Shown here: positions 649 through 19,929 of the stretch, piece after piece
Layout: every line of letters starts with the position of its first letter
How positions within the stretch are numbered: position 1 is the stretch's first letter
NCBI RefSeq assembly: GCF_000716715.1
Contig: NZ_JNYJ01000038.1
Coordinates: forward strand, 186,001 to 250,000
From: Dactylosporangium aurantiacum
GTDB lineage: Bacteria > Actinomycetota > Actinomycetes > Mycobacteriales > Micromonosporaceae
DNA length: 64,000 nt
Reading direction: 5' to 3'
Made by a program: the position numbers and the translations under genes
Notes under the pieces: generated by a model
The model's database searches: none
Told to the model about the DNA's origin: nothing
Seen by the model: only the letters and a program-made list of their open reading frames with translations

Positions 649-3096
649 ATGCGTAAACGCGAACACGGCCTGCTGCCCAATGCAGCATCGCTCCTGCTGT
701 GTGGGCTGCTCGCGGGCTTGGTGGTCGCTGCGGCCGCGTTCCCCGCGGTCGCGATGTCCGGCCTCGCCGCGAAGGCCGGAGCTGACACCTTCGAGAATCT
801 GCCGACGGACATCGACGTGCTTCCGTCGCCGCAGATCAGTTACATCTACGCATCCGACGGCAAGACCCTGCTCGCGATGATGTACGACGAGAACCGGCGC
901 GACGTCCCGCTGACCGATGTCGCCGACGTCATGCGCAAGGCGATCGTGGCCGCGGAGGACAACCGGTTCTACGAGCACCGCGGCGTCGACGTGAAGGGCG
1001 TGGCCCGCGCGTTCGTGGCCAACCAGAACGCCGGCGGCCAGACCGAGCAGGGTGCCTCGACGCTGACGATGCAGTACGTGCGCCAGGCGATCTCCTACTC
1101 GGCGAAGACGCCGCAGGACGTCGTGGACGCCACCGACAAGACCCCGACGCGCAAGCTGCGCGAGATGAAGTATGCGATCGACCTGGAGAAGAAGCTCAAC
1201 AAGGACCAGATCCTCGAGCGGTACCTGAACATCGCCGCCTACGGACACGGCGCCTACGGCATCTTCGCCGCCGCGCACGTCTACTTCGAGAAGGACCCGA
1301 AGGACCTGACGCTGCCGGAGGCCGCGCTCATCGCCGGCCTGGTCAAGGCGCCCGGCACGAGCGACCCGGCAACCACCGACGGTTACCCGCGCGCCATCGA
1401 CCGGCAGAAGTACGTGCTCAACCAGATGGTCGCGATGGGGTACATCAACCAGCAGCAGGCCGACGAGGCCGCCAACACGAAGCTGAACATCGTCGGCAAG
1501 CGCACGCCTGAGGGCTGCGAGTCGGTGCAGCGCCCCGAGGTGCTCGGCGCCGGCTTCTACTGCGACTACCTGCGCCGCTGGTGGATGGACCAGAAGATCT
1601 TCGGCGAGGACCAGTACCAGCGCGCCAACCGGCTGCGCGCCGGCGGCTACACGGTGATCTCCGCGCTCGACGTCAACACCCAGACGGCGGCTCACAAGTA
1701 CGCGCAGGACCAGCCGAACGTCGGCAAGAACGAGAAGATCCGGCTCGGCAACCAGAACGCGATCATGCTGGCCGCGGTCGAGCCGGGCACGGGCCGGGTC
1801 ACGGCGATCGCCACCAACCGCACGTTCAGCAACGACAACAGCAAGAACGGGCCCAACACCAACCCCGACAAGAAGGGGCAGAAGGGCAACTACCCCAACA
1901 CGACGGTGCCGATCATCACCGGTGACAAGGACATCCCCGGCTACCAGGCCGGCTCGACGTTCAAGATGTTCACCGCGGTGGCGGCGCTGGAGGCGGGCCT
2001 GCCCCTGGCCACGACGATCAACACCGAGAAGCAGTTCCAGTCGACGTTCAGGATCAACGCGAGCAGCCCGGCGGCCTGCAACGGCCCCTGGTACTGCCCG
2101 AAGAACGCCGGTGGCCAGTCGGGCCCCTTCAACATGTGGACCGCGTTCGGCAGGTCGATCAACACGTACTTCGTGCCGCTGGAGCAGCAGGTCGGCGCCG
2201 ACAAGGTGGTCGACGTGGCGAAGCGGCTCGGCATCCAGTTCAACGCGAAGGATGATGCCGACTACGCCACCTACCCGGCCTCGAAGCAGTGGGGCGCCTT
2301 CACCCTCGGCGTCAGCGCCACGACGCCGCTGCAGCTGGCCAACGCCTACGGCACGCTCGCCGCGGACGGCCTGTACTGCGAGCCGACCCCGATCGTCGAG
2401 GTCAAGGACAACAGCGGCAGGAAGGTCGAGGGGCTCGACCCGAAGTGCAAGCAGGTCGTCGACAAGGAGGTCGCGCGCGCGGCCGTCGACATGGCCCGCT
2501 GCCCGGTCGGTGACCAGTCCGCCACCGGCAAGTGCGGCGGCGCGACCGCCGAGTACGCCCGCAGGTACGTGGGCCGCCCGCTGGCGGGCAAGTCCGGCAC
2601 GACCGACTCGGAGAAGAGCGCCACGTTCGTCGCGATGACCAAGCAGCTCGCGGTCAGCGGCTTCCTCACCGACCCGGACTGGCCCGAGACGAACAAGGAC
2701 ATGAAGCACCCGCAGATCAACTACGCCACGCTCGGCACGCTCAAGGACGGCCTGGCCGGCAAGCCGGTGGTCCCGTTCGTCGCGCCGACGAAGGACAAGT
2801 CGATGGGCAAGCTCGTGGAGATCCCGTCGGTCAAGTGCCAGGCCGTCGACCAGGCGCGCAGCCGGATCACCCGGGCCGGGTTCACCGTGACGGTCTCCGG
2901 CACCCAGATCCCCTCGGACTGCCCGGCGGGCACGGTCGCGCGGACCGAGCCGGGCGGCGCCACGGTCAAGGGCGGCCAGGTCTCGCTGGTCATCAGCAAG
3001 GGCCCGGGCAACCAGGCCCCGCCGTACCTGGGCACCGACCCGGGCACCGGCAACGGTGTGCGTGACGACGAGTGCCCGCTGCCCTGGGTCTGCTGA
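649..3096 (+). CDS. ponA2: Bifunctional class A penicillin-binding protein with PASTA domain
   Basis: Peptidoglycan glycosyltransferase/transpeptidase of the inner membrane. In order: a short cytoplasmic head, one membrane helix (about residues 15-38), a GT51 transglycosylase domain with the catalytic motif EDNRFYEHRG (Glu103), a penicillin-binding transpeptidase domain with SxxK (Ser436-Thr-Phe-Lys439), SxN (SIN) and KSG (Lys648-Ser-Gly), and one C-terminal PASTA domain (about 720-787) followed by a Pro/Gly tail. About 815 residues is normal for PonA2. I prefer ATG 649 to the in-frame GTG at 640 because the GAGGAAG ribosome site (633-640) overlaps the GTG but is well spaced from the ATG. The gene diverges from wblA and ends at a perfect hairpin. 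Confidence 0.95.
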   Translation: MRKREHGLLPNAASLLLCGLLAGLVVAAAAFPAVAMSGLAAKAGADTFENLPTDIDVLPSPQISYIYASDGKTLLAMMYDENRRDVPLTDVADVMRKAIVAAEDNRFYEHRGVDVKGVARAFVANQNAGGQTEQGASTLTMQYVRQAISYSAKTPQDVVDATDKTPTRKLREMKYAIDLEKKLNKDQILERYLNIAAYGHGAYGIFAAAHVYFEKDPKDLTLPEAALIAGLVKAPGTSDPATTDGYPRAIDRQKYVLNQMVAMGYINQQQADEAANTKLNIVGKRTPEGCESVQRPEVLGAGFYCDYLRRWWMDQKIFGEDQYQRANRLRAGGYTVISALDVNTQTAAHKYAQDQPNVGKNEKIRLGNQNAIMLAAVEPGTGRVTAIATNRTFSNDNSKNGPNTNPDKKGQKGNYPNTTVPIITGDKDIPGYQAGSTFKMFTAVAALEAGLPLATTINTEKQFQSTFRINASSPAACNGPWYCPKNAGGQSGPFNMWTAFGRSINTYFVPLEQQVGADKVVDVAKRLGIQFNAKDDADYATYPASKQWGAFTLGVSATTPLQLANAYGTLAADGLYCEPTPIVEVKDNSGRKVEGLDPKCKQVVDKEVARAAVDMARCPVGDQSATGKCGGATAEYARRYVGRPLAGKSGTTDSEKSATFVAMTKQLAVSGFLTDPDWPETNKDMKHPQINYATLGTLKDGLAGKPVVPFVAPTKDKSMGKLVEIPSVKCQAVDQARSRITRAGFTVTVSGTQIPSDCPAGTVARTEPGGATVKGGQVSLVISKGPGNQAPPYLGTDPGTGNGVRDDECPLPWVC

Positions 3097-3113
3097 CCCG
3101 ACCCCGCACATGA

Positions 3114-3151
3114 CGAAGCGGCCGCCCCGGATGCCCGGGGCGGCCGCTTCG
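3114..3151. terminator. Bidirectional terminator between ponA2 and yqeY
   Basis: A perfect 17-bp stem (arms CGAAGCGGCCGCCCCGG and its complement) closed by the tetraloop ATGC, between two convergent genes. Strong symmetric hairpins without a long T-run are usual intrinsic terminators in GC-rich actinobacteria. Confidence 0.85.
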
Positions 3152-3168
3152 TCGTCGCGGCGGTCCGC

Positions 3169-3621
3169 TCAGCCCTTGGCGAGCTGGGCGCGGACCTCGG
3201 CGGCGACCCGGCCGCCCTCGGCACGGCCGGCCACGGCCGCCTGCGCGGCCTTCATCGCCTGCCCCATGCTCGCCATCCCGCTGAGCCCTGCGGCGGCGAG
3301 GGCATCGCGGACGATGCCGGCGAGGTCCTCGTCGGAGAGCTGGGCCGGCAGGTACGCGGCGAGCACCTCCTCCTCGGCCCGCTCCTTCGCCGCCTGGGCC
3401 TCCCGCCCGGCACCGGCGAACGCCTCGGCGGCCTCCCGCCGCTTCTTCGCCTCCTTGGTGAGCACCGAGAGGATCTCCTCGTCGGACAGCTCGCGGGCGG
3501 CCTTGCCGGCGACCTCGGCGTTGCGTACCGCGGTGATCGCCATCCGCAGGGTCGAGGTCACCAACTCGTCACGGGCCTTCATGGCCTCGTGCAAGTCGGA
3601 CTCCAGACGCTCCTTCAACAT
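3169..3621 (-). CDS. GatB/YqeY domain protein
   Basis: A 150-residue, almost wholly helical protein of the YqeY family, which is related to the tail domain of the amidotransferase subunit GatB that contacts tRNA. It begins MLKERLESDLHEAMKARDE and carries the family hallmarks SDEEILSVLTKEAKKR and the GMASMGQAMKAA segment near the C-terminus. Length matches the family (about 148-152). Its exact job is unknown; a role in tRNA-dependent amidation has been suggested from the homology only. It converges on ponA2 and diverges from the phosphoesterase gene. Confidence 0.93.
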   Translation of the reverse strand: MLKERLESDLHEAMKARDELVTSTLRMAITAVRNAEVAGKAARELSDEEILSVLTKEAKKRREAAEAFAGAGREAQAAKERAEEEVLAAYLPAQLSDEDLAGIVRDALAAAGLSGMASMGQAMKAAQAAVAGRAEGGRVAAEVRAQLAKG

Positions 3622-3698
3622 GAGCGAAGTCTATCGGCGGCCATCGGGCCATATTGGGTTGTAAAAGCGCACCACCTGCCGGCCGGTACCCTTTGCAC

Positions 3699-4592
3699 AT
3701 GCGCTCGAAGACTGTCCGGCGGCTCGCGGTCGGAACCGCCGCGGCCGGTGCTGCCACGTTCGCCTACGCCTCGCTCGTCGAGCGCAACATGTTCACCCTG
3801 CGCAGGTTCGACGTGCCGGTGCTCGCCCCGGACGCGGAGCCGCTGCGGGTGCTGCACCTCAGTGACTTCCACCTCACCCCGGGCCAGCACCGCAAGCAGC
3901 GCTGGATCGCCGAGCTGGCCGGCACCGACCCGGACCTGGTCGTGGTCACCGGCGACACCATGGCCCACGTCGACGCCGTCCCGGCGGTGGTGCGGGCCCT
4001 CACGCCGCTGCTGGACCGGCCCGGCGCGTTCGTGTTCGGCAGCAACGACTACCGCGGCCCGGTGTTCAAGAACCCGTTCGGGTACTTCAACCGCGACAAG
4101 CCCTACGTGCAGGGCGCCGTGCTGCCCACCGAGGAGCTGCGCGACGTGCTCGCCGGCTCCGGCTGGGCCGACCTGAACAACGCCCGCACCACGATCAAGG
4201 CCGGCGGCCGCACCGTGGAGCTGGTCGGCGTCGACGACCCGCACGTCGGCCGCGACGACTACGACAGCGTCGCCGGCCCGGCCTCCGCCGACGTGGACGT
4301 GCGCATCGGCCTGACCCACTCCCCCGAGCCGGCGCTGCTGGACCGCATGGCCGACGACGGCTTCGACCTGCTGCTGGCCGGCCACACCCACGGCGGTCAG
4401 GTCGCGCTGCCGTTCTTCGGGGCGCTCGTCACCAACTGCGGCCTCGACCGGCGGATGGCCAAGGGCCTGCACCGCTGGCCCTACTCGTCGGCGTTCCTGC
4501 ACGTCTCCGCCGGCCTCGGCACCCACCCGACGGCGCCGGTCCGGTTCGCCTGCCCGCCCGAGGCGTCGATCCTGACCCTCATCCCGCGATGA
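3699..4592 (+). CDS. Metallophosphoesterase, membrane-anchored
   Basis: Calcineurin-like phosphohydrolase of 297 residues, orthologous by position to Rv3683 next to ponA2 in mycobacteria. Metal-binding motifs are visible in order: DFH (in LHLSDFHL), GDT, GSND (the usual GNH/D motif), and GHTHGGQ near the C-terminus. A short hydrophobic N-terminal stretch after MRSKTVRR looks like an uncleaved anchor or signal segment. The ATG at 3699 fits the TTTGCAC-ATG context; the upstream open frame to 3654 has no start support. The related YkuE and YaeI proteins act on membrane-bound lipids or phosphodiesters, but the substrate here is unknown. The stop overlaps the next start by four bases (ATGA), so the two are translationally coupled. 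Confidence 0.9.
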   Translation: MRSKTVRRLAVGTAAAGAATFAYASLVERNMFTLRRFDVPVLAPDAEPLRVLHLSDFHLTPGQHRKQRWIAELAGTDPDLVVVTGDTMAHVDAVPAVVRALTPLLDRPGAFVFGSNDYRGPVFKNPFGYFNRDKPYVQGAVLPTEELRDVLAGSGWADLNNARTTIKAGGRTVELVGVDDPHVGRDDYDSVAGPASADVDVRIGLTHSPEPALLDRMADDGFDLLLAGHTHGGQVALPFFGALVTNCGLDRRMAKGLHRWPYSSAFLHVSAGLGTHPTAPVRFACPPEASILTLIPR

Positions 4593-5758
4593 CCGCCTCG
4601 ACCGCGCCGGCCGCCGCCGTCGGCGCGCCGGCCGTCAGCAAGTGGCCGCGCCGGGCCGCGTACGCGGGGGTGGCGGGCGCCGCCGGGCTCGCCGTGCTGC
4701 TGCCCACGGGCACGGCCGGCGCCGGCTGGTTCCTGGCCGGTCAGGTGCTCAACGTCAACGCCGTGCGGGCGTATCCGGTCCGGGTCCGCGCGTGCGCCGG
4801 CGACCGGGTCACCCTGACCCGCACCCCGGACACGTCCCGCTCGATGCCGCTGGCCTTCGTGTGGCCCGCCGGTCACGCCGTCCTCGGCCCCGTCATCGCC
4901 ACCGACCGCGCCACCGTGACCCGCCAGATCACCAGCGTGACGCGCGGCACACTGACGAGCGGGCTCAAGGGTTACACCACCGGATATGTCTTCGAGGGCG
5001 ACCCGCTGTCCGCGCGCGGCCTGCCCTTCGAGGAGGTGCTCGTCCCCGCCGAGCTCGGCGACTGCCCCGCGTGGCTGGTCGCGCCGACCAGCGGCCCCGC
5101 CGACGACACCTGGATCATCGCGGTGCACGGCCGGGGCGCCCCCCGCGGCGAGGCGCTGCGCATCCTGCCCACGCTCGCCGAGTCCGGGCACAACACCCTC
5201 GTGGTCACCTACCGCAACGACCCCGAGGCGTTCCCCAGCCCAGATGCCCGGTTCCACCTGGGCCACACCGAGTGGCGCGACGTGCTGTCGGCCATCGAGC
5301 ACGCCCGGGCCGCCGGCGCCCGGCAGGTCATCCTCTACGGCTGGTCCATGGGCGGCGCCGCCATCCTCAACCTGCTGCGCAACTGGGAGCACGGCGGCCT
5401 CGTGCGCGGCGTCGTCCTGGACTGCCCCGTCGTCGACTGGACCGCGACGCTGCGGATGAACGCCCGCCAGCTCAACGTGCCGCCCCTGTGGACGTGGACC
5501 GCGCTCAAGCTCATCCAGCACCGCCTCGGCCTGCGCTCCGCCGACCTCGACTACCGTGACGTGCGTCTCGACGTGCCGACCCTGGTCTACGTCGACCACG
5601 ACGACCGCACCGTCGCGCCGCAGCCGACCGTCGAACTGGCCGCGGCCTGCCCGTCCGTCCAGCTCGTCGAGACCCGCGAGGCCGGCCACTGCCGCAGCTG
5701 GAACCTCGACCCGGCCGCGTACGAGGCCACCGTGAGCAGGTTCCTCAAGTCCCTCTGA
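4589..5758 (+). CDS. Alpha/beta hydrolase, membrane-anchored
   Basis: A 389-residue serine hydrolase. An N-terminal membrane helix (about residues 24-48) is followed by a region without clear homology and then a hydrolase fold with the nucleophile elbow GWSMGG (GxSxG), the acid in the VDHDDRTV segment and the histidine in AGHCRSW. The oxyanion region is the HGRG motif. It is fused by an ATGA overlap to the metallophosphoesterase, so both are probably made from one transcript and work on the same envelope compartment. Substrate is unknown; the family includes lipases, esterases and peptidases. Confidence 0.87.
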   Translation: MTASTAPAAAVGAPAVSKWPRRAAYAGVAGAAGLAVLLPTGTAGAGWFLAGQVLNVNAVRAYPVRVRACAGDRVTLTRTPDTSRSMPLAFVWPAGHAVLGPVIATDRATVTRQITSVTRGTLTSGLKGYTTGYVFEGDPLSARGLPFEEVLVPAELGDCPAWLVAPTSGPADDTWIIAVHGRGAPRGEALRILPTLAESGHNTLVVTYRNDPEAFPSPDARFHLGHTEWRDVLSAIEHARAAGARQVILYGWSMGGAAILNLLRNWEHGGLVRGVVLDCPVVDWTATLRMNARQLNVPPLWTWTALKLIQHRLGLRSADLDYRDVRLDVPTLVYVDHDDRTVAPQPTVELAAACPSVQLVETREAGHCRSWNLDPAAYEATVSRFLKSL

Positions 5759-5819: not shown

Positions 5820-5893
<74 letters not shown>

Positions 5894-5900
5894 CAGCGTC

Positions 5901-5977: not shown

Positions 5978-6650
5978 ATGCCTGTCCTGGTCGAACGCGC
6001 CAACACGGCGCTGTCGTCAACGTCCCTGCGGGCCGTGCTCGGCTCGACGTCCGGGCCGGGCGTCCCGGACGTCGACGTCTCGGCCCTGCTGCTCACCGCC
6101 ACCGGGAAGGTGCGCGGCGACCTGGACTTCGTCTTTACAACCAGCCGGCCCATCCCGGCGGTGCGGCGCGGCGGCGCCCCTGACGGCCGTGCTGCAGACC
6201 GCCCCGATGGCGTCGGCGGGGTTCCCTCCGCCCGTCGGGGCCGACCTGCGCCCCACCGCGCCGGCTACCTGCGCCCCACCGCGGCGGCTACGGCACCCAC
6301 GCCCCGGCGGCCGACGACGATCGGTCCCAGCAAGGGCAGCGGCCCGGCCCTGCTCACCAAAACCCCAGGATCGTCGCCTCGGCGTCGTGGAGTTCGAGGA
6401 CCGTCTACGACCTCTACGCGCTGGTCGTCACCCGCGACGGCAAGGTGCACCACGTGGCGCGGTTCGGCGCCCGGGGAATGCGCGTGACGCCGCAGTTCCG
6501 CGGTGTCCGGCAGGAAGGCGACGCCGGCGCAGGCGAACGGGACCGGATCGTTCCACCAGCACCGGGTCTCGCTCGCCGTCGACAACCGGGGCCGGGGAGT
6601 GCGGCGGCGACCAGCCGTCATGGATCGTCGTGCCCGGGTGACGAAACGGC
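5978..6650 (+). pseudogene. Decayed TerD-family stress protein gene
   Basis: The remains of a TerD/TerA-type (tellurium/stress) protein are scattered over three reading frames. The first frame opens at ATG 5978 with a good TerD N-terminus (LVERANTAL, then GVPDVDVSALLLTATGKVR and DFVF). Near 6134 a single missing base moves the family motif YNQPAHPGG into another frame, which then stops. Further on, VYDLYALVVTRDGKVHHVARFGA reads in one frame (about 6400-6473), ANGTGSFHQHRVSLAVDN in a second (about 6533-6590), and GECGGDQPSWIVVPG in a third (about 6597-6641). Several separate indels and internal loss make a functional product very unlikely. Intact relatives bind calcium through the TerD fold. 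The remnant runs in frame into the next gene's upstream region, which can mislead start prediction. Confidence 0.72.
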
Positions 6651-6769
6651 ACCTTCGGCGGTCATCGGGGCCCGGTGGCCGTCCACCGGTCACCCGACAC
6701 GCGTCCCCCGAAGTGTCAAAACCTGCTGAACACCTCAGCGGCGCCCCGGGTAGGCCGATCAAGTTGACA

Positions 6770-9700
6770 ATGAACGTGCAGGGCGGCCCGGCACCGGTGA
6801 CGATGGATCCAGTCACCGGTGCTCATTCGCGTGCCGCGCTGGACGTCGCCCTGCACGACGTCACCGGGTGCAGCCTGCTGCTGTTCGACGTCGACCACTT
6901 CAAGACGGTCAACGACGCCTTCGGCCATCTGCGCGGTGACCTGCTGCTGCGCCAGCTCGCCGACCGGATCGCCGGGCTCATCCGCGCCGACGACGTGCTG
7001 TTCCGCTACGGCGGCGACGAGTTCGTGCTGCTGCTGCCCAACACCGGGGCCGAGGAGGCGCTGCGCCTCGCGATCCGGCTGACCGACGAGATCCGGGCCA
7101 GGGAGTTCGCCGGGACGCCGCCGCTGCACCTGTCGATCAGCCTCGGCGTGGCGAGCAGCCCCGTGGACGGCACCGACGGCGAGACCCTGATCGAGGTCGC
7201 GGACCGCCGCAACTACCTGGCCAAGCGGCGCGGCCGCGGGCAGGCGGTCGGCGACGACGTCGCGGCGTCCGCCGCCGCCGGCTCGTCCCGGCTGTGGGAG
7301 CGGGACGCGGCGCTGAGCGGCACCCAGGAGTTCATCACCCGGGTCGCCGCCGGCAGCCACTCCGCGCTGCGGATCGTCGGGCCTCCGGGCGCGGGGCACA
7401 CCCGGTTCCTCCGCGAAGTGGCGCAGATCGCCCGTTTGCGCGGTTTTCCGGCGGTACCGGCGGCGGACCGCACCCCGGGCTGCATCCTGCTCGCCGACGT
7501 GGGCGACCCGGTGCCGGAGCTCGGCGACGCGGCGGCCATCGTCTACGCCACCACCAGCCCGCACGACGGTGACCCGCGCCGGACCGGGCTGCCGGAGGCG
7601 GTCGTCGAGCTGACCCCGTGGTCGCCGGCGACGCTGCGCATCTGGCTGCGCATCGCCCTCACCGGCGAGCCCAGCGCCGCCCTGGTCGACCGGCTCGCCG
7701 AGCGCTCCGGCGGGCTGCCCGCCCGGGCCGAGGCGGAGCTGGGGCGGCTGCGCGCGCAGGGCGAGCTGATCGGCTCCCAGGACGGCACGTGGACCGTCAA
7801 GCCGCCGAAGGTGAAGCGGCGGCGTGGCCGGCTGCCCGTACCGATGACCAGGCTCGTCGGCCGGGACCGGGAGACCGCCAAGGTCGCCGCGCTGGTCCGG
7901 GACGGGCGCCTGGTCACCCTGGTCGGGCCGGGCGGCATCGGCAAGACCCGGCTGTCGCTGGCGGCCGCGACGGTGCTCGCGGACGACTTCGCCGACGGCG
8001 TCGTGTTCGTGCCCCTGGCCGACAGCACCGACGCGGAGCTGATGACGGCCGCCCTGGCCCGGGCGCTGCACGTCAGTGAGCTGCCCGACCAGCACCTGTT
8101 CGACACCCTGCTGGACCAGCTCGAGGAGTCCGAGCTGCTGCTCGTGCTGGACAACTTCGAGCAGGTCGTCGACGACGGCGCGGCCCTGGTCAGCGACCTG
8201 CTGGCGGCGGCGCCGGGAGTCCGGGCGCTGGTCACCAGCCGGGAGCGGCTCTCGCTGTACGGCGAGCAGGTGTACCAGGTGCCGACGCTCGCCGACTCGC
8301 CCGCGGTGACGCTGTTCGAGCAGCGGGCCCGTGCCGTGGACGCCGACTTCGAGATCACCGTCGACACCGCGCTGCCGGTCGCGGCGCTGTGCCGCCGCCT
8401 CGACGGCCTGCCCCTGGCGATCGAGCTGGCCGCCGCCCGCATCGACCGCTGGACCCCGGACGAGCTGCTCAACCACCTCACGGAGCACCTCGACCGGGAT
8501 CTCGACTCGCTCGGCGGTGCCGGCCCGCGGGACCTGCCGGCGCGCCAGCAGACGCTGCGCGGGGCGATCGACTGGAGCTTCGTGCTGCTCGACTCCGAGG
8601 AGCAGCGGCTGCTCACGGAGCTGTCGGTGTTCGCCGGCGGCTGGACCGCCGCGGCGGCGCTCGCGGTGACCCTGCCGGGCGGTGACCTGCACCTGCTGGA
8701 GAAGCGGCTGTCGGCGCTGGTCGACAAGCACCTGGTGGTCCGCGACGAGGACGACGACGGCCGGTACCGGCTGCTGTCGACGATCCGCGCCTACGCCCGG
8801 CACCGGCTCGGCGACGCGGTCGAGCCGCTCGACCGGCACGCGGAGTTCTACGCCGCGTTCGCCGAGGCGTCGGCGGCCGGGCTGTCCGGACCCGAGCAGG
8901 TCGAGTGGACGGGCCGGGTGGAGGCCGACTACCAGAACGTGCGGGCCGCCTTCGCGCACGCCGGCGTCGCCACGAAGACCCGGATCTGCCTGGGGCTGTG
9001 GCGGTACTGGCGCAACGGCGCCCACATCAACGAGGGCCGGGAGTGGCTGTCGGCGCTGCTGGCGGCGCCGGGCCTGGAGGACGGCGCCCTGGCGCGGCTG
9101 CTGCACGCCGCCGCGATCCTGGCCGCGACCCAGGACGAGCACGAGGAGGCGCTGCGCCTGGCCGCGTCGGCGCTGCGGAAGGCGACGGCGGCCGGCGACC
9201 GCGCGACGGTCGGGCACGCGTACAACGCGATGGGGATCGCGGCGATCGGCGGCGGCGACCACGCGGCCGCGACCGAGCACTTCGGGCACAGCCTGGCGAT
9301 CTGGCGGGAGCTGGACGTGCCGCAGGGGGTGGCCGCGTCGCTGGGCAACCTCAGCAAGGTCGCCCTGTCGCGGGGCGAGATCGCGGAGGCCGAGCGCTAC
9401 GCTACCGAGTGCCTGGCGCTGGAGCGCGCCGCCGGCAACACGCGGGGCATCCAGCTCGCCCTGGAGTGCCTCGGCCAGATCATGCTGGCCCGCGGCGACG
9501 TGGCCGCCGCACGCGAGGCGCTCGACGAGAGCCTCGCGCTGAGCCGGCAGATCGGCGACGCGTTCGGCGCCGCGATGGCCCAGCACCAGCTGGGGCTGGC
9601 CGCGCGCCTGGAGGGCGACCGGGTGGAGGCGCTGCGACTGCTGGTGACCGCGCTGGTCACCCGGCACGAGGTCGGCGACCGGCTGGACCTGGCGATCTCC

Positions 9701-9940
9701 CTGGACGTGGTCGCGGCGCTGCTCGCGGCCGACGACCCGGCGCACGCGGCGCGGCTGGTCGGCGCCGCGGACGGGCTGCGGGCCCGGCACCGGCTGGCCG
9801 AGCCGCCGGACGCGCAGACGCTGCGCTCGGTGACGCTGCCGCTGCTGGCGGACCACCAGCGCGACCGCACGGCCGGCCGGGCGGTCAGCGTCGAGCACAT
9901 CGTGGAGGTCCTAAAGTCGTCCTATGGTGTCGTTGGCTGA
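6770..9940 (+). CDS. Diguanylate cyclase fused to STAND-type ATPase with TPR repeats
   Basis: A 1056-residue signalling protein. Residues about 12-165 form a GGDEF domain: metal-binding FDVDHFK, catalytic GGDEF at 81-85 and an intact RxxD inhibitory site (RADD) five residues before it, so cyclic di-GMP synthesis with product inhibition is plausible. A second segment (about 180-340) has a damaged P-loop (GPPGAGHT, lysine lost). A full NB-ARC/AAA module follows with Walker A GPGGIGKT (386-393), Walker B LLLVLDNFEQ and the TSRERL sensor, then a winged-helix-like region and TPR repeats to the end. Related ATPase-TPR halves are usually fused to class III adenylate cyclases or LuxR/BTAD DNA-binding domains; no such domain is present. 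I chose ATG 6770 (alternatives GTG 6797, ATG 6803) because the longer frame is TerD debris. Its end overlaps the next start by 17 bases. Confidence 0.88.
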   Translation: MNVQGGPAPVTMDPVTGAHSRAALDVALHDVTGCSLLLFDVDHFKTVNDAFGHLRGDLLLRQLADRIAGLIRADDVLFRYGGDEFVLLLPNTGAEEALRLAIRLTDEIRAREFAGTPPLHLSISLGVASSPVDGTDGETLIEVADRRNYLAKRRGRGQAVGDDVAASAAAGSSRLWERDAALSGTQEFITRVAAGSHSALRIVGPPGAGHTRFLREVAQIARLRGFPAVPAADRTPGCILLADVGDPVPELGDAAAIVYATTSPHDGDPRRTGLPEAVVELTPWSPATLRIWLRIALTGEPSAALVDRLAERSGGLPARAEAELGRLRAQGELIGSQDGTWTVKPPKVKRRRGRLPVPMTRLVGRDRETAKVAALVRDGRLVTLVGPGGIGKTRLSLAAATVLADDFADGVVFVPLADSTDAELMTAALARALHVSELPDQHLFDTLLDQLEESELLLVLDNFEQVVDDGAALVSDLLAAAPGVRALVTSRERLSLYGEQVYQVPTLADSPAVTLFEQRARAVDADFEITVDTALPVAALCRRLDGLPLAIELAAARIDRWTPDELLNHLTEHLDRDLDSLGGAGPRDLPARQQTLRGAIDWSFVLLDSEEQRLLTELSVFAGGWTAAAALAVTLPGGDLHLLEKRLSALVDKHLVVRDEDDDGRYRLLSTIRAYARHRLGDAVEPLDRHAEFYAAFAEASAAGLSGPEQVEWTGRVEADYQNVRAAFAHAGVATKTRICLGLWRYWRNGAHINEGREWLSALLAAPGLEDGALARLLHAAAILAATQDEHEEALRLAASALRKATAAGDRATVGHAYNAMGIAAIGGGDHAAATEHFGHSLAIWRELDVPQGVAASLGNLSKVALSRGEIAEAERYATECLALERAAGNTRGIQLALECLGQIMLARGDVAAAREALDESLALSRQIGDAFGAAMAQHQLGLAARLEGDRVEALRLLVTALVTRHEVGDRLDLAISLDVVAALLAADDPAHAARLVGAADGLRARHRLAEPPDAQTLRSVTLPLLADHQRDRTAGRAVSVEHIVEVLKSSYGVVG

Positions 9941-10535
9941 CTGGCAGCGCCTGTTCCCCGCGGACTCGGCGGCCGGGGCCGACCTGATCGAGCGGTGGTC
10001 GCAGCCGCACCGGCGCTATCACACGCTGGAGCACCTGGCCGTGATGCTCACGGTGATCGACGCGCACGCGGACCTGGCCGACGACGCGGACGCGGTGCGG
10101 CTGGCGGCGTGGTTCCACGACGCGGTCTACGAGCCGTTCGCGCCCGACAACGAGGAGCGCAGCGCCGAGCTCGCCGCCGCGGTGCTGCCCGGGCTGGGGG
10201 TGGCGGCGGACCGGGTGGCCGAGGTCGTGCGGCTGGTGCGGCTGACGGCGGGCCACGCGGTGGCCGGTGGAGACCGCAACGGTGCCCTGCTCGCCGACGC
10301 CGACCTGGCGATTCTCGCGTCGGCGCCGGACGATTATGCCCGTTATGCGGCGGCGGTACGGGATGAGTACGCGGCCGTGCCGGAGGATGCGTTCCGCTCC
10401 GGCCGCGCACAAATCCTCGGCACCTTCCTGGGCCGGCCGGAGCTGTTCAGGGCGGTGCCGGGGCGGGCGGAGTGGACCGCCCGCGCGCACGACAACCTGC
10501 GGGCGGAGATCACGACGCTTCTGGGTGCTCCGTGA
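9924..10535 (+). CDS. HD-domain metal-dependent hydrolase
   Basis: A 203-residue predicted metal-dependent phosphohydrolase. The HD signature is complete: HRRYHTLEHL, then WFHDAVYEP (His-Asp pair), and a later DADLAIL aspartate. Such small proteins act on nucleotides or phosphate esters, but this subfamily has no fixed substrate. It lacks the GYP motif, so it is not a cyclic di-GMP phosphodiesterase of the HD-GYP type. The start ATG lies inside the end of the diguanylate cyclase gene in another frame, so translation is probably coupled. Its 3' end overlaps the convergent bfr gene by 26 bases. Confidence 0.85.
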   Translation: MVSLADWQRLFPADSAAGADLIERWSQPHRRYHTLEHLAVMLTVIDAHADLADDADAVRLAAWFHDAVYEPFAPDNEERSAELAAAVLPGLGVAADRVAEVVRLVRLTAGHAVAGGDRNGALLADADLAILASAPDDYARYAAAVRDEYAAVPEDAFRSGRAQILGTFLGRPELFRAVPGRAEWTARAHDNLRAEITTLLGAP

Positions 10536-13643: not shown

Positions 13644-15491
13644 TTAAGAGATGGCCGTGCGATCCGATTGGAAGCCGCGCACGTCGGGGACGCCGAGCCG
13701 GGCCGCGTCGGCGGTCAGGTCGTCGGGCATGCGCTGCGACTCCTGCTCCGCGGCGACCCGCGCCAGGTAGTGCTCGATCTCCCGGGACCTCGTCGCCGCG
13801 TCCCAGCCCAGCACCGCCCCCATGACCTCGGCGGTCTCGGCGGCCGAGGCGGCACCGCGGTGGTCGGTCTCGAAGGAGATCCGGGTCCGGCGGGTCAGCA
13901 CGTCCTCCAGGTGCAGGGCGCCCTCGGCGAGCGCCGCGTAGGCCACCTCCGCCGCCAGGTACTCCGGGGCGCCCGGCAGCGGGCGGCGCAGCGACGGGTC
14001 CAGGGCGAGCACGTCGAAGGCGAGCGAACCGTACCGCTCCAGCAGGTGCTCCAGGACGCCGGCGGAGATACCGTGCCGGCGGGCCAGGTCCGCGCGGTTG
14101 GTCCACAGCGCGTGGTAGCCGTCGGCGCCGAGCAGCGGCAGGTCGGCGGTGCGGGACGCCGGGACCAGCCCGCCGTGCCGGCGCAGGCCGCCGAGGCGGT
14201 GCGCGACCCGGTCGATGACGTCGGCGGCCATGACCCGGTACGTCGTGTACTTGCCGCCCGCGATCAGCATCAGCCCCAGCATCGGCTCGACCACGGCGTG
14301 CGTACGGGACAAGGCCGAGGTCTGCTCGTCGCGGGTGTGCGGCTGCCGCTGGCGGGCCTCGCGGGACAGCAGCGGGCGCAGCCCGGCGTAGACGCCCTCG
14401 ATGTCCTCGGTCGACAGCGGCCGGTCCAGCACCGCGTTGACCTGGCCGAGCAGGTAGGAGATGTCGGTCGCGGACGCCGCCGGATGCCCGCGGTCCAGGT
14501 GCCAGTCGGTGTCGGTGGTACCGATGATCCAGTGCCCGCCCCACGGGATGACGAACAGGACCGAGGTCTGGGTCCGCAGGATCAGCCCGGCCTCGCCGGT
14601 GATCGCGGAGCGGGGCACCACCAGGTGGACGCCCTTGCTCGCGCGCACCTGCAGCCCCGACGACTCGCGCGGGCCGGCCCCGGACAGCAGGCCGGCGATG
14701 TCGTCCATCCACACGCCGGTGGCGGCCACGACCGTGCGGGCGTGCACCTCGAACTCCTCGCGGGACTCCAGGTCGCGCACCCGCACCCCGGTGACCTCGC
14801 GCGCGTCGCGCAGCAGCCCGACGGCGCGGGCGCTGGGCACCACCGCGGCACCGAGGCTGGCGGCGGTGCGGGCGAGCGTCGCGACCAGGCGGGCGTCGTC
14901 GACCTGGCCGTCGAAGTACTGGATGGCGCCGCTGATCGCGTCCTCACGCAGCGACGGGAAACGCCGGTGGGTCTCGGCGCGGGACAGGTGCCGGTGCAGC
15001 GGCATCCCGCGGGGCGCGGACCCGCGCAGCTGGGCGGCGGTGGCGAACGCGTCGTAGAGCCCGACGCCGGCGCCGTAATAGGCCCGCTGCCAGACGCGGT
15101 GCGCGACCCCCGTCAGGCCGCGGTGCGCGGGCAGCGGCACCAGGATCGGCACCGGCCGGACCAGGTGCGGCGCGAGGCGGGTGGCGAGCAGGCCGCGCTC
15201 CTGCAGGGCCTCGGCGACCAGGCCGAACTCGAGCTGCTCCAGGTAGCGCAGGCCGCCGTGGATCAGCTTCGACGACCGGCTGGACGTGCCGGAGGCCAGG
15301 TCCCGTGCCTCGACGAGGGCGACGGACAGCCCGCGGGACGCGGCGTCGACGGCCGCTCCGACGCCGGTGACGCCACCGCCGATGATCAGGACGTCGAAGC
15401 GCTCACGGCGCAGCCGCGCGACGTCCTGCGCACGGCGGCCGGGCGACAGGCGGCTGGCCTGGAAACGGGACGTGGAGGGTTCACGGCGCAC
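13644..15491 (-). CDS. glpD: Glycerol-3-phosphate dehydrogenase (FAD)
   Basis: Membrane-peripheral flavoenzyme of about 615 residues that oxidises glycerol-3-phosphate to dihydroxyacetone phosphate and feeds electrons to quinone. Visible: the dinucleotide motif DVLIIGGGVTGVGAA, the FAD/G3P motif SGTSSRSSKLIHGGLRYLE, the mid-region WGGHWIIGTTDTDW, GGKYTTYR, and the C-terminal DAO_C helical domain. The chosen start is GTG 15491, giving an N-terminal extension of about 27 residues before the FAD fold; a later start cannot be excluded. It diverges from the SRPBCC gene, with 66 bases between the starts. No glpF or glpK is nearby. Confidence 0.93.
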   Translation of the reverse strand: MRREPSTSRFQASRLSPGRRAQDVARLRRERFDVLIIGGGVTGVGAAVDAASRGLSVALVEARDLASGTSSRSSKLIHGGLRYLEQLEFGLVAEALQERGLLATRLAPHLVRPVPILVPLPAHRGLTGVAHRVWQRAYYGAGVGLYDAFATAAQLRGSAPRGMPLHRHLSRAETHRRFPSLREDAISGAIQYFDGQVDDARLVATLARTAASLGAAVVPSARAVGLLRDAREVTGVRVRDLESREEFEVHARTVVAATGVWMDDIAGLLSGAGPRESSGLQVRASKGVHLVVPRSAITGEAGLILRTQTSVLFVIPWGGHWIIGTTDTDWHLDRGHPAASATDISYLLGQVNAVLDRPLSTEDIEGVYAGLRPLLSREARQRQPHTRDEQTSALSRTHAVVEPMLGLMLIAGGKYTTYRVMAADVIDRVAHRLGGLRRHGGLVPASRTADLPLLGADGYHALWTNRADLARRHGISAGVLEHLLERYGSLAFDVLALDPSLRRPLPGAPEYLAAEVAYAALAEGALHLEDVLTRRTRISFETDHRGAASAAETAEVMGAVLGWDAATRSREIEHYLARVAAEQESQRMPDDLTADAARLGVPDVRGFQSDRTAIS

Positions 15492-15557
15492 CTCATTACC
15501 GTAGCCGCGCCCGTCACGAGTTGGTGTGGGATGAGGCGGTGGGGGAATCAGACCAAC

Positions 15558-16007
15558 GTGTCCATCACCGAACGTATCGTCAGCGCGCCCGTCGACCGGG
15601 TCTACTCCGTCCTCGCCGACGGCTGGTCCTACAGCGACTGGGTCGTCGGCACCGCGCACATCCGTGACGTCGATGCGTCGTGGCCCGAACCCGGCTCGCG
15701 GCTGCATCACAAGGCCGGCCCGTGGCCCATGTCGATCAAGGACCGCAGCGAGTCGCTGGCCTGCGAGCAGGACAGGATGCTGCTGCTCAAGGTGCATCTG
15801 TGGCCGCTCGGCGCGGGCCAGGTCCGCTTCACGCTCGACCCGCTGGACGACCAGGCGACCCGGGTGACGATGCAGGAGCAGTTCACCGACGGGCCGCTGG
15901 TCGGGGTACGCAACAAGATCGGCGACGTCCTGCTGCACTACCGCAACGCCGAGGCGCTGAGCCGGCTGGCGGACCTGGCGGAGCGGCGGGCTCACTCCCT
16001 GCCGTAG
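15558..16007 (+). CDS. SRPBCC-family protein
   Basis: A 149-residue START-like (polyketide cyclase/SRPBCC) protein with a hydrophobic ligand cavity. It starts VSITERIVSAPVDRVYSVLADGWSYSDWVVG, the usual first strand and helix, and ends in the long C-terminal helix NRIGD-like segment (NKIGDVLLHYRNAEAL). GTG 15558 has a GTGGGGGA ribosome-like stretch; ATG 15531 is an alternative. It converges on, and overlaps by 16 bases, the CrtI-like oxidoreductase. The ligand is not predictable. Confidence 0.88.
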   Translation: MSITERIVSAPVDRVYSVLADGWSYSDWVVGTAHIRDVDASWPEPGSRLHHKAGPWPMSIKDRSESLACEQDRMLLLKVHLWPLGAGQVRFTLDPLDDQATRVTMQEQFTDGPLVGVRNKIGDVLLHYRNAEALSRLADLAERRAHSLP

Positions 16008-17593
16008 AGGGCGCGCATCGCCTTTCCGACACCGGCCGCGTAGACGTCACCGAGCAGCGGCCGGTGCCGGGACAGCGCGGCCCGGGCCGCGTTCGCGCCC
16101 GGGGCGCCGTGCACCCCGCCGCCCGGGTGGGCGCTGGAGCTGGCCAGGTACAGCCGGTCGACCGGCGTGTCGGCCCGCCCGAGGTTCGTCACCGGCCGCC
16201 AGAACAGCTGCTGGTGCGCCGCGGCCGTGCCGCCGTTGATCGCGCCGTCGACCAGGCTCGGGTTCTCCTCGGCCAGCTCGGCCGGGCCGCTGACGTGCTT
16301 GGCGAGGATCAGGTCGTCGAACCCGGGGGCGTGCCGGCGCATCGCGTCCTCGATCCGGGTGACCTGCGTGCGCACCAGCTCCGCGTCGACCTGGCCGGGC
16401 TTCACGGGGCGTGGCAGGTGGGTGTACGCCCACAGCGACTCCGTGCCGGCCGGCGAGCGGGTCGCGTCGGCGGTGGTCATCTGGCCGATGAGCAGGAACG
16501 GGTCCCGCGGTGCCCGGCCGACGGCCAGGTCGGCGGCGTAGCGCTGCGGGTCGGCGCCGAGGTGGATGGTGCCGGCACCGGCGACGTCCGGCGAGATCCA
16601 CGGGGCCTTGCCCGACAGCGCCCAGTCGATCTTCAGCGTGGCGTTGTCCCAGCGGAAACCCTCCAGGTCCCGCAGCAGCCGGGCGGGCAGGTGATCCTGG
16701 GGGACGAGGCGCTGGTACAGGGTGGGCGCCGGCACGTCGGCCAGCACGGCCCGGCGGGCCCGCACGAAGCCGCCGTCGGCGCACCGCACACCCAGCGCCC
16801 GCCCGCCGCCGACGATCACCCGCTCGACCATGGCGCCGGTGCGGATCCGGCCGTTGCCGGTCGCCGCGAGCCGGCGGACCAGGGCGTCGGTCAGCTGCTG
16901 GGCGCCACCGACGGGCACCGGGAAGCCGTACTGCTGGCCGAGCATCGCCAGCAGCCAGCCGAACCCGCCGCTCGCCGAGTCGTCCGGGGTGAGGTCGGTG
17001 TGCAGGGCGAGGCCGGTGAGCAGCAGCCGGCCGCCGTCGCCGCGGAACAGCTCCTCGCCGAGGACCCGCGCCGGGACCAGGAACCTGCGACCGAGCCGCA
17101 ACGCCCCGCCGAGGCCCGCCCGCGCGGCCAGCCCGATCCCCGACCGGACCGGCGGGAACGGGGTGAGCAGCGCTGGGAGCAGGTCCCCGGAGAGGCGGCG
17201 CCATTCGGCGTACATCTGCCGCCAACGCTGCCCGTCGCCGGGCGCGAACCGGTCCAGCGACTCGGCCGTGAGGTCCAGCTCCCGGCTGAGCACCGCGGCG
17301 CGGCCGTCCGGGAAGAGATGCGCGACGACGGCCGGCGCGTGCGTCCACCGCAGCCCGTGCGCCTCCAGGTCGAGCGCGAGCAGCGGCGGCGAGCCGGCGC
17401 CGAGCGGATAGAACGCGCTGCACAGATCGTTGAGGAACCCGGGCGCGGTGATCTGCGCCGAGCGGACCGCGCCGCCCACGTGGTCGGTGCCTTCCAGCAC
17501 GACGACGTCCCAGCCCGCGTCGGCGAGCATGTTGGCGGCGACGAGCCCGTTGTGCCCGGCGCCGATGACCACCGCGTCCACTGTTACCGTCAT
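15992..17593 (-). CDS. Phytoene desaturase-like NAD(P)/FAD oxidoreductase
   Basis: A 533-residue flavoprotein of the CrtI/retinol-saturase-like superfamily. The N-terminus holds the Rossmann motif VVIGAGHNGLVAANMLADAGW followed by VLEGTDHVGGAVRS; the C-terminus has the second FAD contact (LYLASSSAHPGGGVHGAPGANAAR). No carotenoid gene such as crtB or crtE is nearby, so a carotenoid role is not supported; the substrate is unknown. The start ATG 17593 sits almost on top of a GGGAGGT sequence; GTG 17581 would be better spaced. It diverges from the membrane subtilase, with about 60 bases between the starts. Confidence 0.87.
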   Translation of the reverse strand: MTVTVDAVVIGAGHNGLVAANMLADAGWDVVVLEGTDHVGGAVRSAQITAPGFLNDLCSAFYPLGAGSPPLLALDLEAHGLRWTHAPAVVAHLFPDGRAAVLSRELDLTAESLDRFAPGDGQRWRQMYAEWRRLSGDLLPALLTPFPPVRSGIGLAARAGLGGALRLGRRFLVPARVLGEELFRGDGGRLLLTGLALHTDLTPDDSASGGFGWLLAMLGQQYGFPVPVGGAQQLTDALVRRLAATGNGRIRTGAMVERVIVGGGRALGVRCADGGFVRARRAVLADVPAPTLYQRLVPQDHLPARLLRDLEGFRWDNATLKIDWALSGKAPWISPDVAGAGTIHLGADPQRYAADLAVGRAPRDPFLLIGQMTTADATRSPAGTESLWAYTHLPRPVKPGQVDAELVRTQVTRIEDAMRRHAPGFDDLILAKHVSGPAELAEENPSLVDGAINGGTAAAHQQLFWRPVTNLGRADTPVDRLYLASSSAHPGGGVHGAPGANAARAALSRHRPLLGDVYAAGVGKAMRALYGRE

Positions 17594-17655
17594 ACCTCCC
17601 ACTTTGCCCCCGCAGCTCATCCGAAACTGTCACAGCCGGGTCGTAGAGTGCCGCC

Positions 17656-19929
17656 ATGACGAGGTCACGGGGTTGGGCGCTGGGATTGACCATCGTCCTG
17701 GGCCTTTGGGCCGCGGCGGTCACGGTCGGCGTCCACGCCGGCGCCTGGCTGACCGGCGAGACCCTGCAGGCGCTGGGCTCGGTCGCCCCGCGGTCGCTCT
17801 GGCCCGCGGCGGGCTGGCTCGCCGCCGTCCTCGTCGCCGGTCCGGCCATGCTGCTGGCGTGGCTGTCGCCGGTGCCGTTCGCGCGCACCGCCGGCCGGCA
17901 GTGGGCGTTCACCGCGCTGCTCGGCGGTCTGCTCGGCACCGTCCGGCTGGTCCCCGACACCTATCACGAGATCTATCTGACGCTGCTGGCCTGCCTCGCC
18001 GCGGTGGCGGCGCTCGTGCACCGCGCGGTGCGCGGCCGGGCGGAGCGGGCCGACCGCTGGCTGCTGTGGCTGTCGCTGGCGGCCGGGCTGGTCGGGCTGC
18101 TGCCGTGGCTGTGGGTCGGTGCGCTGGGCGGCCTGGTGGAGACGGTGGCCGCCCTGCTCGCCGCGGTGGCGGTGGCCTGGCTCGCGGCGCGGCCGGTCAC
18201 GGCGCTCACCGCGCTCGGCGCGTCGCCGCGCAGCGCCTGGGGCGGCACGGCGCTCGGCGGCCTGACCGCGGGCGTCGGCCTGCTCACCCTGGTCGCCGGC
18301 GTCGGCGAGCCGGCGGTGCAGCTCTTCGCCATGGTCGCGATCCCGCCGCTGGCGTTCCCGCTGGCCGCCCTGGCGCGCCGGGGGCGCCCGGCGGTGCCGG
18401 CGCTGCTGGCGCCCGCCCTGTTCGGGCCGCTCGCGCTGGTCGACCCCGACGAGACGACACTGCTGCTGGGCCTGCGCGACGTCGCCTTCTGGGCGCTCGT
18501 CGGCGCCGTGGCCGGCCTGATCCTGGCGCTGCTGACCGGCGTGTCCCTGGTGCCGGCGACGGGGCGCGTCCGGTGGCTGCCCCGCTTCGCCGCCCTGACC
18601 GCGGCCGTCGTCGCGGCCGCCGGCGTGCTCGTCGCCACCGCCCTCGGCCAGCCGGGCCTGCACGGCGAGCACCTCTTCGTGATCATGAAGGAGCAGACCG
18701 ACCTGAGCGGGCTGCGCGACGTGCCCGACCGCACCACCCGCATCCGGCAGACCTATGAGCGGCTGGTCGGCACCGCGGAGCGCTCACAGGGCCCGCTGCG
18801 CGCGGCGCTGCGCGCCAAGCACCTCGACTACACCCCGTTCTACCTGGTCAACGGGGTCGAGGTGCACGCCGGCCCGCTCGTGCGCCAGTGGCTGGAGGGC
18901 CGCTCCGACGTCGACCGGGTCCTGCTCAACCCGCAGCTGCGGCCGCTGCCCGTCACCCCGGCACCGGCACACGAGGGTCCGTCGGCCGCGCCGGCCACCC
19001 CACCGTGGAACGTGACGCTGATCAAGGCCGACCAGGTCTGGTCCGAGTACACCACCGGCCGCGGCATCGTCGTGGGCAGCTCCGACTCCGGCGTCGACGG
19101 CACCCACCCGGCGCTGCGGGCCTCGTTCCGCGGCTCGGACGACTCCTGGCTCGACCCGATCGACCACAGCACCGTCCCGTTCGACCCCAACGGCCACGGC
19201 ACGCACACCCTCGCCACCGCGGTCGGGGCCGGCGTCGGGGTGGCCCCGGGCGCGCAGTGGGTGGCCTGCGCCAACCTGCCCCGCAACCTGGGCAGCATGT
19301 CCGCCTACCTGAGCTGCCTGCAGTTCATGCTCGCCCCGTATCCGGCCGGCGCCGACCCGCTGCACGCCGGTGTGCCCCAGCGCGCCCCGCACGTGCTCAC
19401 CAACTCGTGGGGCTGCCCGACGCTGGAGGGCTGCGACGCCCGCTCCCTGCAGCAGGCGGTCGACGCCTTCTCCGCCGCCGGCATCTTCTTCGTGGCCGCC
19501 GCCGGCAACACCGGCCCCGACTGCGCCACCGTCACCGACCCACCGGCCAACTACCCGTCCACCTTCACCGTCGGCGCCGTCACCAGGTCGTCCCAGGTCG
19601 CCTCCTTCTCCAGCCGCGGCCCCACCCCCGCCGGCCTGCCCAAGCCCGACCTCATGGCCCCCGGCGCCGCCATCGTCTCGGCCCTGCCGGGCGGCGGCTA
19701 CGGCGCCCTGAGCGGCACGTCGATGGCGACGCCGCACGTGGCGGGCGTGGTGGCCCTGATGTGGGCGGCCAACCCTGCCCTGATCGGCCACATCGAGCAG
19801 ACCCGCGCCCTGCTGCTGCACACCACCCAACCGGTCGACGCCGCGTCCTCCTCCTGCGGGCAGGCCGACACGGCGGGCGCGGGCCTCGTGGACGCTTTGG
19901 CCGCCGTACGCGCCGCCACCACCTCATGA
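17656..19929 (+). CDS. Polytopic membrane-anchored subtilisin-like protease
   Basis: A 757-residue S8 peptidase whose first 340 or so residues form a membrane domain of about nine hydrophobic helices rather than a signal peptide. After a linker rich in Ala and Pro comes the catalytic domain with a complete triad: Asp477 (SSDSGVDGTHP), His517 (NGHGTHTLAT) and Ser689 (SGTSMATPHVAG); the oxyanion asparagine is in AAAGNTGPDC. The domain ends at the protein's C-terminus with no further anchor. A soluble S8 domain tethered to a multi-helix membrane module suggests a surface or intramembrane-regulated protease, either outside or inside depending on helix number. It is followed by a repeat tract, not by another gene. 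No inhibitor I9 prodomain is obvious. Confidence 0.9.
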   Translation: MTRSRGWALGLTIVLGLWAAAVTVGVHAGAWLTGETLQALGSVAPRSLWPAAGWLAAVLVAGPAMLLAWLSPVPFARTAGRQWAFTALLGGLLGTVRLVPDTYHEIYLTLLACLAAVAALVHRAVRGRAERADRWLLWLSLAAGLVGLLPWLWVGALGGLVETVAALLAAVAVAWLAARPVTALTALGASPRSAWGGTALGGLTAGVGLLTLVAGVGEPAVQLFAMVAIPPLAFPLAALARRGRPAVPALLAPALFGPLALVDPDETTLLLGLRDVAFWALVGAVAGLILALLTGVSLVPATGRVRWLPRFAALTAAVVAAAGVLVATALGQPGLHGEHLFVIMKEQTDLSGLRDVPDRTTRIRQTYERLVGTAERSQGPLRAALRAKHLDYTPFYLVNGVEVHAGPLVRQWLEGRSDVDRVLLNPQLRPLPVTPAPAHEGPSAAPATPPWNVTLIKADQVWSEYTTGRGIVVGSSDSGVDGTHPALRASFRGSDDSWLDPIDHSTVPFDPNGHGTHTLATAVGAGVGVAPGAQWVACANLPRNLGSMSAYLSCLQFMLAPYPAGADPLHAGVPQRAPHVLTNSWGCPTLEGCDARSLQQAVDAFSAAGIFFVAAAGNTGPDCATVTDPPANYPSTFTVGAVTRSSQVASFSSRGPTPAGLPKPDLMAPGAAIVSALPGGGYGALSGTSMATPHVAGVVALMWAANPALIGHIEQTRALLLHTTQPVDAASSSCGQADTAGAGLVDALAAVRAATTS

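Follow-up and report, generated by a model that had tools for sequence, protein, structure and literature searches.

A putative signal-gated diguanylate cyclase combining GGDEF, degenerate AAA+, STAND, and TPR modules in Dactylosporangium aurantiacum

Most known diguanylate cyclases, the sources of cyclic diguanosine monophosphate (c-di-GMP), are controlled by small sensor or receiver domains, and those of the PleD/WspR type are gated by receiver domains. The gene described here lies at positions 6770 to 9940 (+) of a 64,000-nucleotide stretch of Dactylosporangium aurantiacum (contig NZ_JNYJ01000038.1, positions 186,001 to 250,000), referred to below as the window. Its product is alike to the PleD/WspR-type cyclases in the catalytic GGDEF motif, the metal and guanine-contact residues, the RxxD site, and the fold, whereas the place of the receiver domains is taken by a STAND (signal transduction ATPase with numerous domains) module and tetratricopeptide repeats (TPRs). 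With moderate confidence, the protein is read as a signal-gated diguanylate cyclase with the order GGDEF, inactive AAA+, active STAND, winged helix, and TPR, belonging to the motile-spore program of the Micromonosporaceae.

One related regulator is AfsR of Streptomyces, a SARP-STAND-TPR protein whose N terminus is a DNA-binding SARP domain. The STAND region of the window protein aligns with that of AfsR (8k60/8jke), whereas a GGDEF domain and an inactive AAA+ domain stand where AfsR has its SARP domain; Pfam scans of the cyclase protein show no N-terminal SARP/BTAD domain. The NCBIfam matches to AfsR (76.7 bits) and to HaaT, a TPR protein from clusters for cyclophane-type ribosomally synthesized and posttranslationally modified peptides (112.3 bits), both remain far below the cutoffs of 1430 and 1125, respectively. 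The inactive STAND (iSTAND) NTPases of Kaur et al. (2020) likewise retain a STAND-like/AAA+ module after the loss of catalysis. In the vWA-MoxR systems of PMC7159879, iSTAND forms a component of its own, in contrast to the tandem of an inactive and an active module within one cyclase found here. The parts and the principle are already known, and databases call the combination merely a diguanylate cyclase. A search of the full-text literature, covering titles and abstract openings and leaving most subscription literature outside, found no publication on the GGDEF-AAA+-STAND-TPR architecture, and the accessible portions of PMC7159879, PMC6895123, and PMC1592074 do not describe it. An oligomerizing STAND gate, if real, would make the enzyme an all-or-none, energy-coupled source of c-di-GMP, unlike cyclases with small gates, and would bridge the fields of bacterial second messengers and Apaf-1/NLR switches.

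The open frame extends from 6503 to 9940 (+) and encodes 1,056 amino acids from the likely start ATG at 6770 to the stop codon. This start is favored because a promoter motif ends 11 bp upstream and because an ATG occupies the same place in three loci of the same genus (L112, L113, and L114). Pfam assigns GGDEF to residues 12 to 157 (E value of 2.9e-32), AAA_22, AAA_16, and NB-ARC to the region of residues 361 to 574 (5.9e-9 to 3.4e-8), and TPR_12, TPR_10, and a sub-threshold MalT-TPR to the region of residues 782 to 997. The gene is under purifying selection, with ratios of nonsynonymous to synonymous substitution rates (dN/dS) of 0.12 to 0.32 across four protein parts compared with three same-genus orthologues. 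From 7,996 scored candidates, the database search yielded 6,232 relatives, and the best 120 of these are used for the residue counts below. GGDEF is carried by 117 of them, and the majority are full-length proteins that also have AAA and TPR regions, mostly 1,030 to 1,230 amino acids long. The closest relative among the matches listed, from Dactylosporangium sp. NPDC050688, is 95% identical; Dactylosporangium, Planosporangium, and Actinoplanes are among the genera represented, and many other rows are metagenome proteins. A second set comprises the best 120 of 2,300 matches (P0124 to P0243) to the query L001, from a metagenome-assembled genome (MAG) of the Anaerolineales (Chloroflexota). It shows the same domain order and a similar length, and it is called Chloroflexota-type from its query and a few named rows, which belong mostly to the Chloroflexota apart from two; one row carries the name Symbiobacteriaceae and one Mycobacterium leprae.

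The fusion of two genes through a sequencing or assembly error, named by the initial annotation as a possible refutation of its reading, is refuted by the full-length relatives with the same domains and by the recurrence of the layout in the 120 relatives of L001; nothing was found in its favor, and its probability is practically nil. The coordinates and motif assignments of that annotation hold as well: GGDEF and RxxD both align with PleD, the NB-ARC/AAA ATPase and the repeats agree with the Pfam families given above, and the degenerate second P-loop, GPPGAGHT, is present and is in addition part of a complete AAA+ fold.

The GGDEF domain (residues 12 to 157; 6803 to 7240, +) contains the catalytic motif at residues 81 to 85 (7010 to 7024, +), which includes the conserved D83 and E84 and is found in 118 of the 118 rows with letters at this place (121 rows in total). 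No window-type row with letters departs from D40, N48, D57, K152, or R156. The product inhibition site, R72-A-D-D75 (6983 to 6994, +), placed by alignment with PleD, retains its arginine in 109 and its aspartate in 111 of 118 rows with letters. With the GG(D/E)EF motif and the metal and substrate residues expected of a diguanylate cyclase, together with the common but not universal RxxD site, the domain is apparently competent for catalysis. A role as a sensor of c-di-GMP or GTP, in which nucleotide binding by GGDEF would trigger STAND assembly and the output would be something held by the TPRs, might be suggested by the N-terminal position of the domain, where STAND proteins usually carry an effector or adaptor, and by the RxxD site, which could bind the product. 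Sensor-only GGDEF domains usually lose the motif along with the residues for metal and substrate, however, whereas these are present here in every window-type row with letters, and such a role is unlikely.

The STAND NTPase domain (residues 355 to 580; 7832 to 8509, +) shows an intact Walker A motif at 7925 to 7948 with K392 and a Walker B motif at 8135 to 8155 with D461. Both residues are conserved in 121 of 121 sequences of the window-type set, and the lysine is found in 120 of 120 relatives of L001; in the pooled sets, the Walker A lysine occurs in 241 of 241 and the Walker B aspartate in 238 of 241 sequences. The module further displays a GLPLA-type motif, a superhelical C terminus, and a winged helix, the last recognized by secondary structure alone. 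This winged-helix/linker region (residues 591 to 700; 8540 to 8869, +) is deduced from the AlphaFold2 (AF2) model and an AfsR profile match at residues 345 to 689, and PF25872, a winged helix-turn-helix family, is present in most relatives. The TPR superhelix (residues 701 to 1038; 8870 to 9883, +), supported by Pfam, the AF2 model, and fold matches to TPR proteins that include Rap-type peptide receptors, is the presumed sensor. The nearest solved STAND proteins include AfsR, 6mfv, and Apaf-1. The enzyme could also be a constitutive cyclase which the STAND and TPR regions merely locate or scaffold without gating: no ligand is known, and TPR proteins often act as hubs. The retention of the Walker residues across both sets points instead to a working ATPase cycle, which makes a constitutive enzyme rather unlikely.

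The pseudo-AAA+ domain (residues 174 to 345; 7289 to 7804, +) between these two parts folds alone in AF2 with a mean predicted local distance difference test (pLDDT) score of 91.6. Foldseek relates it to AAA+ proteins such as RuvB and RFC, with RuvB chains at ranks 1 to 3 (best E value of 9.3e-6; template modeling [TM] score by query of 0.56 to 0.59), and Pfam over this domain gives AAA_30 alone, below its cutoff. The degenerate Walker A sequence GPPGAGHT (residues 204 to 211; 7379 to 7402, +) takes the form GxxGxGHTR in the window clade, and a 74-row alignment shows no variation at G204, G207, G209, and R212; the P-loop is beyond chance and, in the predicted structure, belongs to a complete AAA+ domain. 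The fold is that of an AAA+ protein, with His210 (7397 to 7399) in place of the Walker A lysine for ATP binding. Across the 120 relatives' rows with a letter at this position, histidine occurs in 106, tyrosine in 7, phenylalanine in 4, arginine in 2, cysteine in 1, and lysine in none, and conventional ATP binding by the domain is hardly to be expected.

In L001, which has the same layout, the first ATPase retains GLPNSGKSR intact together with a Walker B motif that is acidic, and L002, from a Deinococcota MAG, has a valine at the lysine position. Relatives of L001 (best 120 of 2,300) often keep the first lysine (54 of 120, followed by arginine in 40, histidine in 8, isoleucine in 7, and others in fewer), whereas the window clade, as sampled, never does; their first ATPase is also longer, with a median of 159 compared to 119 residues from the P-loop to GGLP. 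In a quick, unrooted tree of 97 rows after thinning, the window-type rows form one clade (Shimodaira-Hasegawa-like approximate likelihood ratio test support of 100), and the first ATPase requires at least 16 changes between lysine and non-lysine. The AAA+ fold and the ease of losing a lysine suggest that the residue was lost rather than gained. An origin of the two ATPase domains by internal duplication finds no support. The inactive first ATPase next to an invariant second one represents a natural experiment in the evolution of pseudoenzymes.

A working model can be drawn by analogy to STAND biology, as known from Apaf-1 and AfsR, and to GGDEF dimerization, from which gating, a ligand, and a function for the inactive ATPase are inferred. 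Expression would occur mainly when a flagellar or WhiG-type sigma factor of the zoospore/sporangium program is active. In the resting state, the ADP-bound STAND module and the TPRs would keep the protein monomeric, with its GGDEF domains separated. Binding of a ligand or partner to the TPR superhelix would then allow the exchange of ADP for ATP and STAND oligomerization, in which the pseudo-AAA+ domain would serve as a rigid interface for coupling or assembly. Two GGDEF domains would thereby meet and form c-di-GMP until the product occupies the RxxD site. The mechanism envisaged in the initial annotation, with ligand binding to the TPRs, ATP-driven assembly, and cyclase activation by GGDEF dimerization, fits what is known of the families, given the intact catalytic and STAND motifs and the proximity of AfsR, 6mfv, and Apaf-1. 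Enzyme activity, gating, and oligomerization are likewise deduced rather than observed.

The tie to the motile-spore program comes from a promoter motif of the flagellar (FliA/WhiG) type, CTCA-N16-GCCGAT, at 6734 to 6759 (+). It lies 36 to 11 bp upstream of the start codon and is the sole match in the window. The motif was first spotted by eye at the window and then tested at the other loci from -200 to +30 around the aligned start. The locus set derives from 32 loci found in 300 Micromonosporaceae genomes, of which 29 (28 relatives' loci and the window) were compared, with G063, G114, and G121 left out; the promoter count covers 28 loci including the window, without the broken copy L132. The strict motif occurs at 10 of these 28 loci, compared to 0.02 expected from the same loci, and six of the ten fall outside the window's genus; the relaxed form TCA-N16-GCCGA occurs at 16 (0.26 expected). 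The spacer letters vary, and both boxes are kept across loci. As a control, CTCA-N15..17-GCCGA is found ahead of flagellin genes in L160, L162, L164, and L165, and its density amounts to 13.4 per 100 kb in six flagellar stretches versus 3.8. Flagellar promoters of Actinoplanes missouriensis reportedly read CTCA(N15-17)GCCGAA (Jang et al. 2016). Of the 22 loci whose genomes carry flagellin, 16 have the relaxed motif, versus 0 of the 6 from flagellin-negative genomes, which come from two genera (P = 0.0025, a value which, like others of its kind, overstates the difference, as loci and genomes are related). The cyclase gene itself occurs in 21 of 93 genomes with flagellin versus 8 of 207 without, and flagellin was found in 20 of 26 tested genomes bearing the gene. 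As in a FliA/WhiG regulon, a flagellar-type motif stands ahead of the gene, which suggests control by a sigma factor of this type. According to PMC8325347, WhiG-like sigma factors drive zoospore flagella and pili in Actinoplanes, which has WhiG and lacks the c-di-GMP-sensing anti-sigma factor RsiG, and five genes for diguanylate cyclases or phosphodiesterases lie behind WhiG-type promoters in Rubrobacter. Through this promoter tie, a single gene would suffice to test how c-di-GMP acts in flagellated actinomycetes that form sporangia.

Several observations weigh against this reading. The predicted TM score of the full AF2 model is 0.67, so that the domain arrangement is not predicted, RxxD is missing in 7 to 9 of 118 relatives, and dozens more GGDEF stretches in the same genome may render the gene redundant. 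The window motif alone is not significant (0.51 expected; at least one match in 38 of 100 shuffles), and its -35 half is CTCA, compared to TAAA in the flagellar consensus TAAA/GCCGATAA given in PMC8325347. Six loci in flagellin-positive genomes have no relaxed motif. Seven g35 genomes and one g16 genome hold the cyclase gene without flagellin, and the motif is found in none of the six flagellin-less g35/g16 loci examined; the flagellar link is therefore not universal. In the five g35 genomes tested, flagellin is absent and so is any strong FliA/WhiG match, taking the best FliA/WhiG value per genome as the sigma factor call. By the same measure, G022 carries flagellin but lacks a strong match and G015 shows the reverse, and the control locus L161 has no motif match ahead of its flagellin gene; these three cases weaken the sigma factor link a little and are the reason for a slightly lowered confidence in the model.

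The distribution of the gene is patchy, as the middle-domain query matches 29 of 300 Micromonosporaceae genomes, which fall into 8 of 44 genera, and 2 of 396 in a phylum sample, these two being the genome that holds the window and another with a weak, partial match. Patchiness would also suit a conflict STAND protein, antiphage or for self/non-self recognition, in which an invader part on the TPRs would elicit a burst of c-di-GMP leading to dormancy or death; STAND, inactive STAND, and rarely GGDEF occur in conflict systems of multicellular bacteria according to PMC7159879. PADLOC gives a generic TPR match alone, however, neither vWA nor MoxR occurs among the 7 flanking window open reading frames (ORFs) scanned (3 with a clear family), although g35 loci show a MoxR-like gene by eye, and the flagellar-type motif and purifying selection are better suited to developmental signaling, which leaves a conflict function quite unlikely.

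A gene or remnant of a secreted subtilisin-like (S8) protease neighbors the cyclase gene at 21 of 29 loci. At 17 of these (L112, L115 to L118, L120, L121, L123, L124, L129, L131, L133 to L135, and L137 to L139), a near-full-length, divergently transcribed protease gene with a Trp-rich tail and WSGRYW-like repeats in its product lies directly upstream; truncated remnants occur in L113 and L132, of the same genus, and other placements are found in L127 (both sides) and L136 (downstream). Eight loci, the window included, have no adjacent protease. The protease belongs to S8 by Pfam (E value of 3.7e-42) and is nearest to mycosin, below the cutoff of that family (126.7 versus 278.75 bits). Five of five g35 loci compared, without flagellin, retain the protease beside the cyclase gene, so this neighborhood is independent of the flagellar link. 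The other multigenus clusters among the 45 neighbor clusters listed are shadow frames of the cyclase gene and a loose ABC transporter cluster (9 loci, varied positions). Of 20 chosen stretches around protease paralogues, 8 show a GGDEF match, and 10 chosen neighboring ORFs include GGDEF-EAL, SpoIIE, chemoreceptor, and kinase proteins; in this selection, which is not a census, the protease family keeps company with signaling genes. GGDEF matches near protease paralogues also occur in L150 and L152 to L154, and the paralogues of L141, L143 to L147, L149, L155, and L157 lie near GGDEF-EAL, SpoIIE phosphatase, chemoreceptor, histidine kinase, or HD response regulator genes.

The neighborhood allows a further reading, in which the protease releases or trims an extracellular peptide that enters the cell and binds the TPRs, activating STAND and c-di-GMP synthesis at the zoospore/sporangium stage, with the inactive AAA+ domain as an evolved coupling part. 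Peptide binding is suggested by the Rap-type receptors among the fold matches; the reading is a speculative one of low probability, and the window itself has no protease beside the gene. Seven protease paralogues exist in the window genome (E value of 1e-60), and none is accepted as a moved partner, as they are 54 to 57% identical to the neighbor copy of the closest relative; the window's protease therefore seems lost or unassembled. Homology of the window to its closest relative ends at 6715, 19 bp ahead of the promoter motif, and a block beyond is inverted there. A rearrangement breakpoint, as read from this alignment, abuts the cyclase gene, and the rearrangement probably cost the window its protease neighbor. 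In the comparison of window positions 6684 to 6770 with L112 and L113, homology ends just upstream of the motif, and L112 has the window blocks of 13644 to 19923 in reverse orientation on the opposite side.

A gene for a 203-amino-acid protein with a YHTxxH motif (9924 to 10535, +) overlaps the stop codon of the cyclase gene; it adjoins the cyclase gene at only 4 of 29 loci, all of the same genus, and the Pfam HD match of its product is not significant. A tRNA-Pro (CGG) gene at 5820 to 5894 (+), ∼0.9 kb upstream of the cyclase gene, is not found at that place in the stretches of the 28 relatives. In L132, from the same-genus genome G081, the orthologue is broken: its matches are fragments that lie in two frames and lack the middle. 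The protease remnant at this locus comprises 39 amino acids. In the g35 locus L137, MoxR-like and vWA/Bat-like genes are recognizable by eye at 1672 to 4768, upstream of the cyclase and protease genes.
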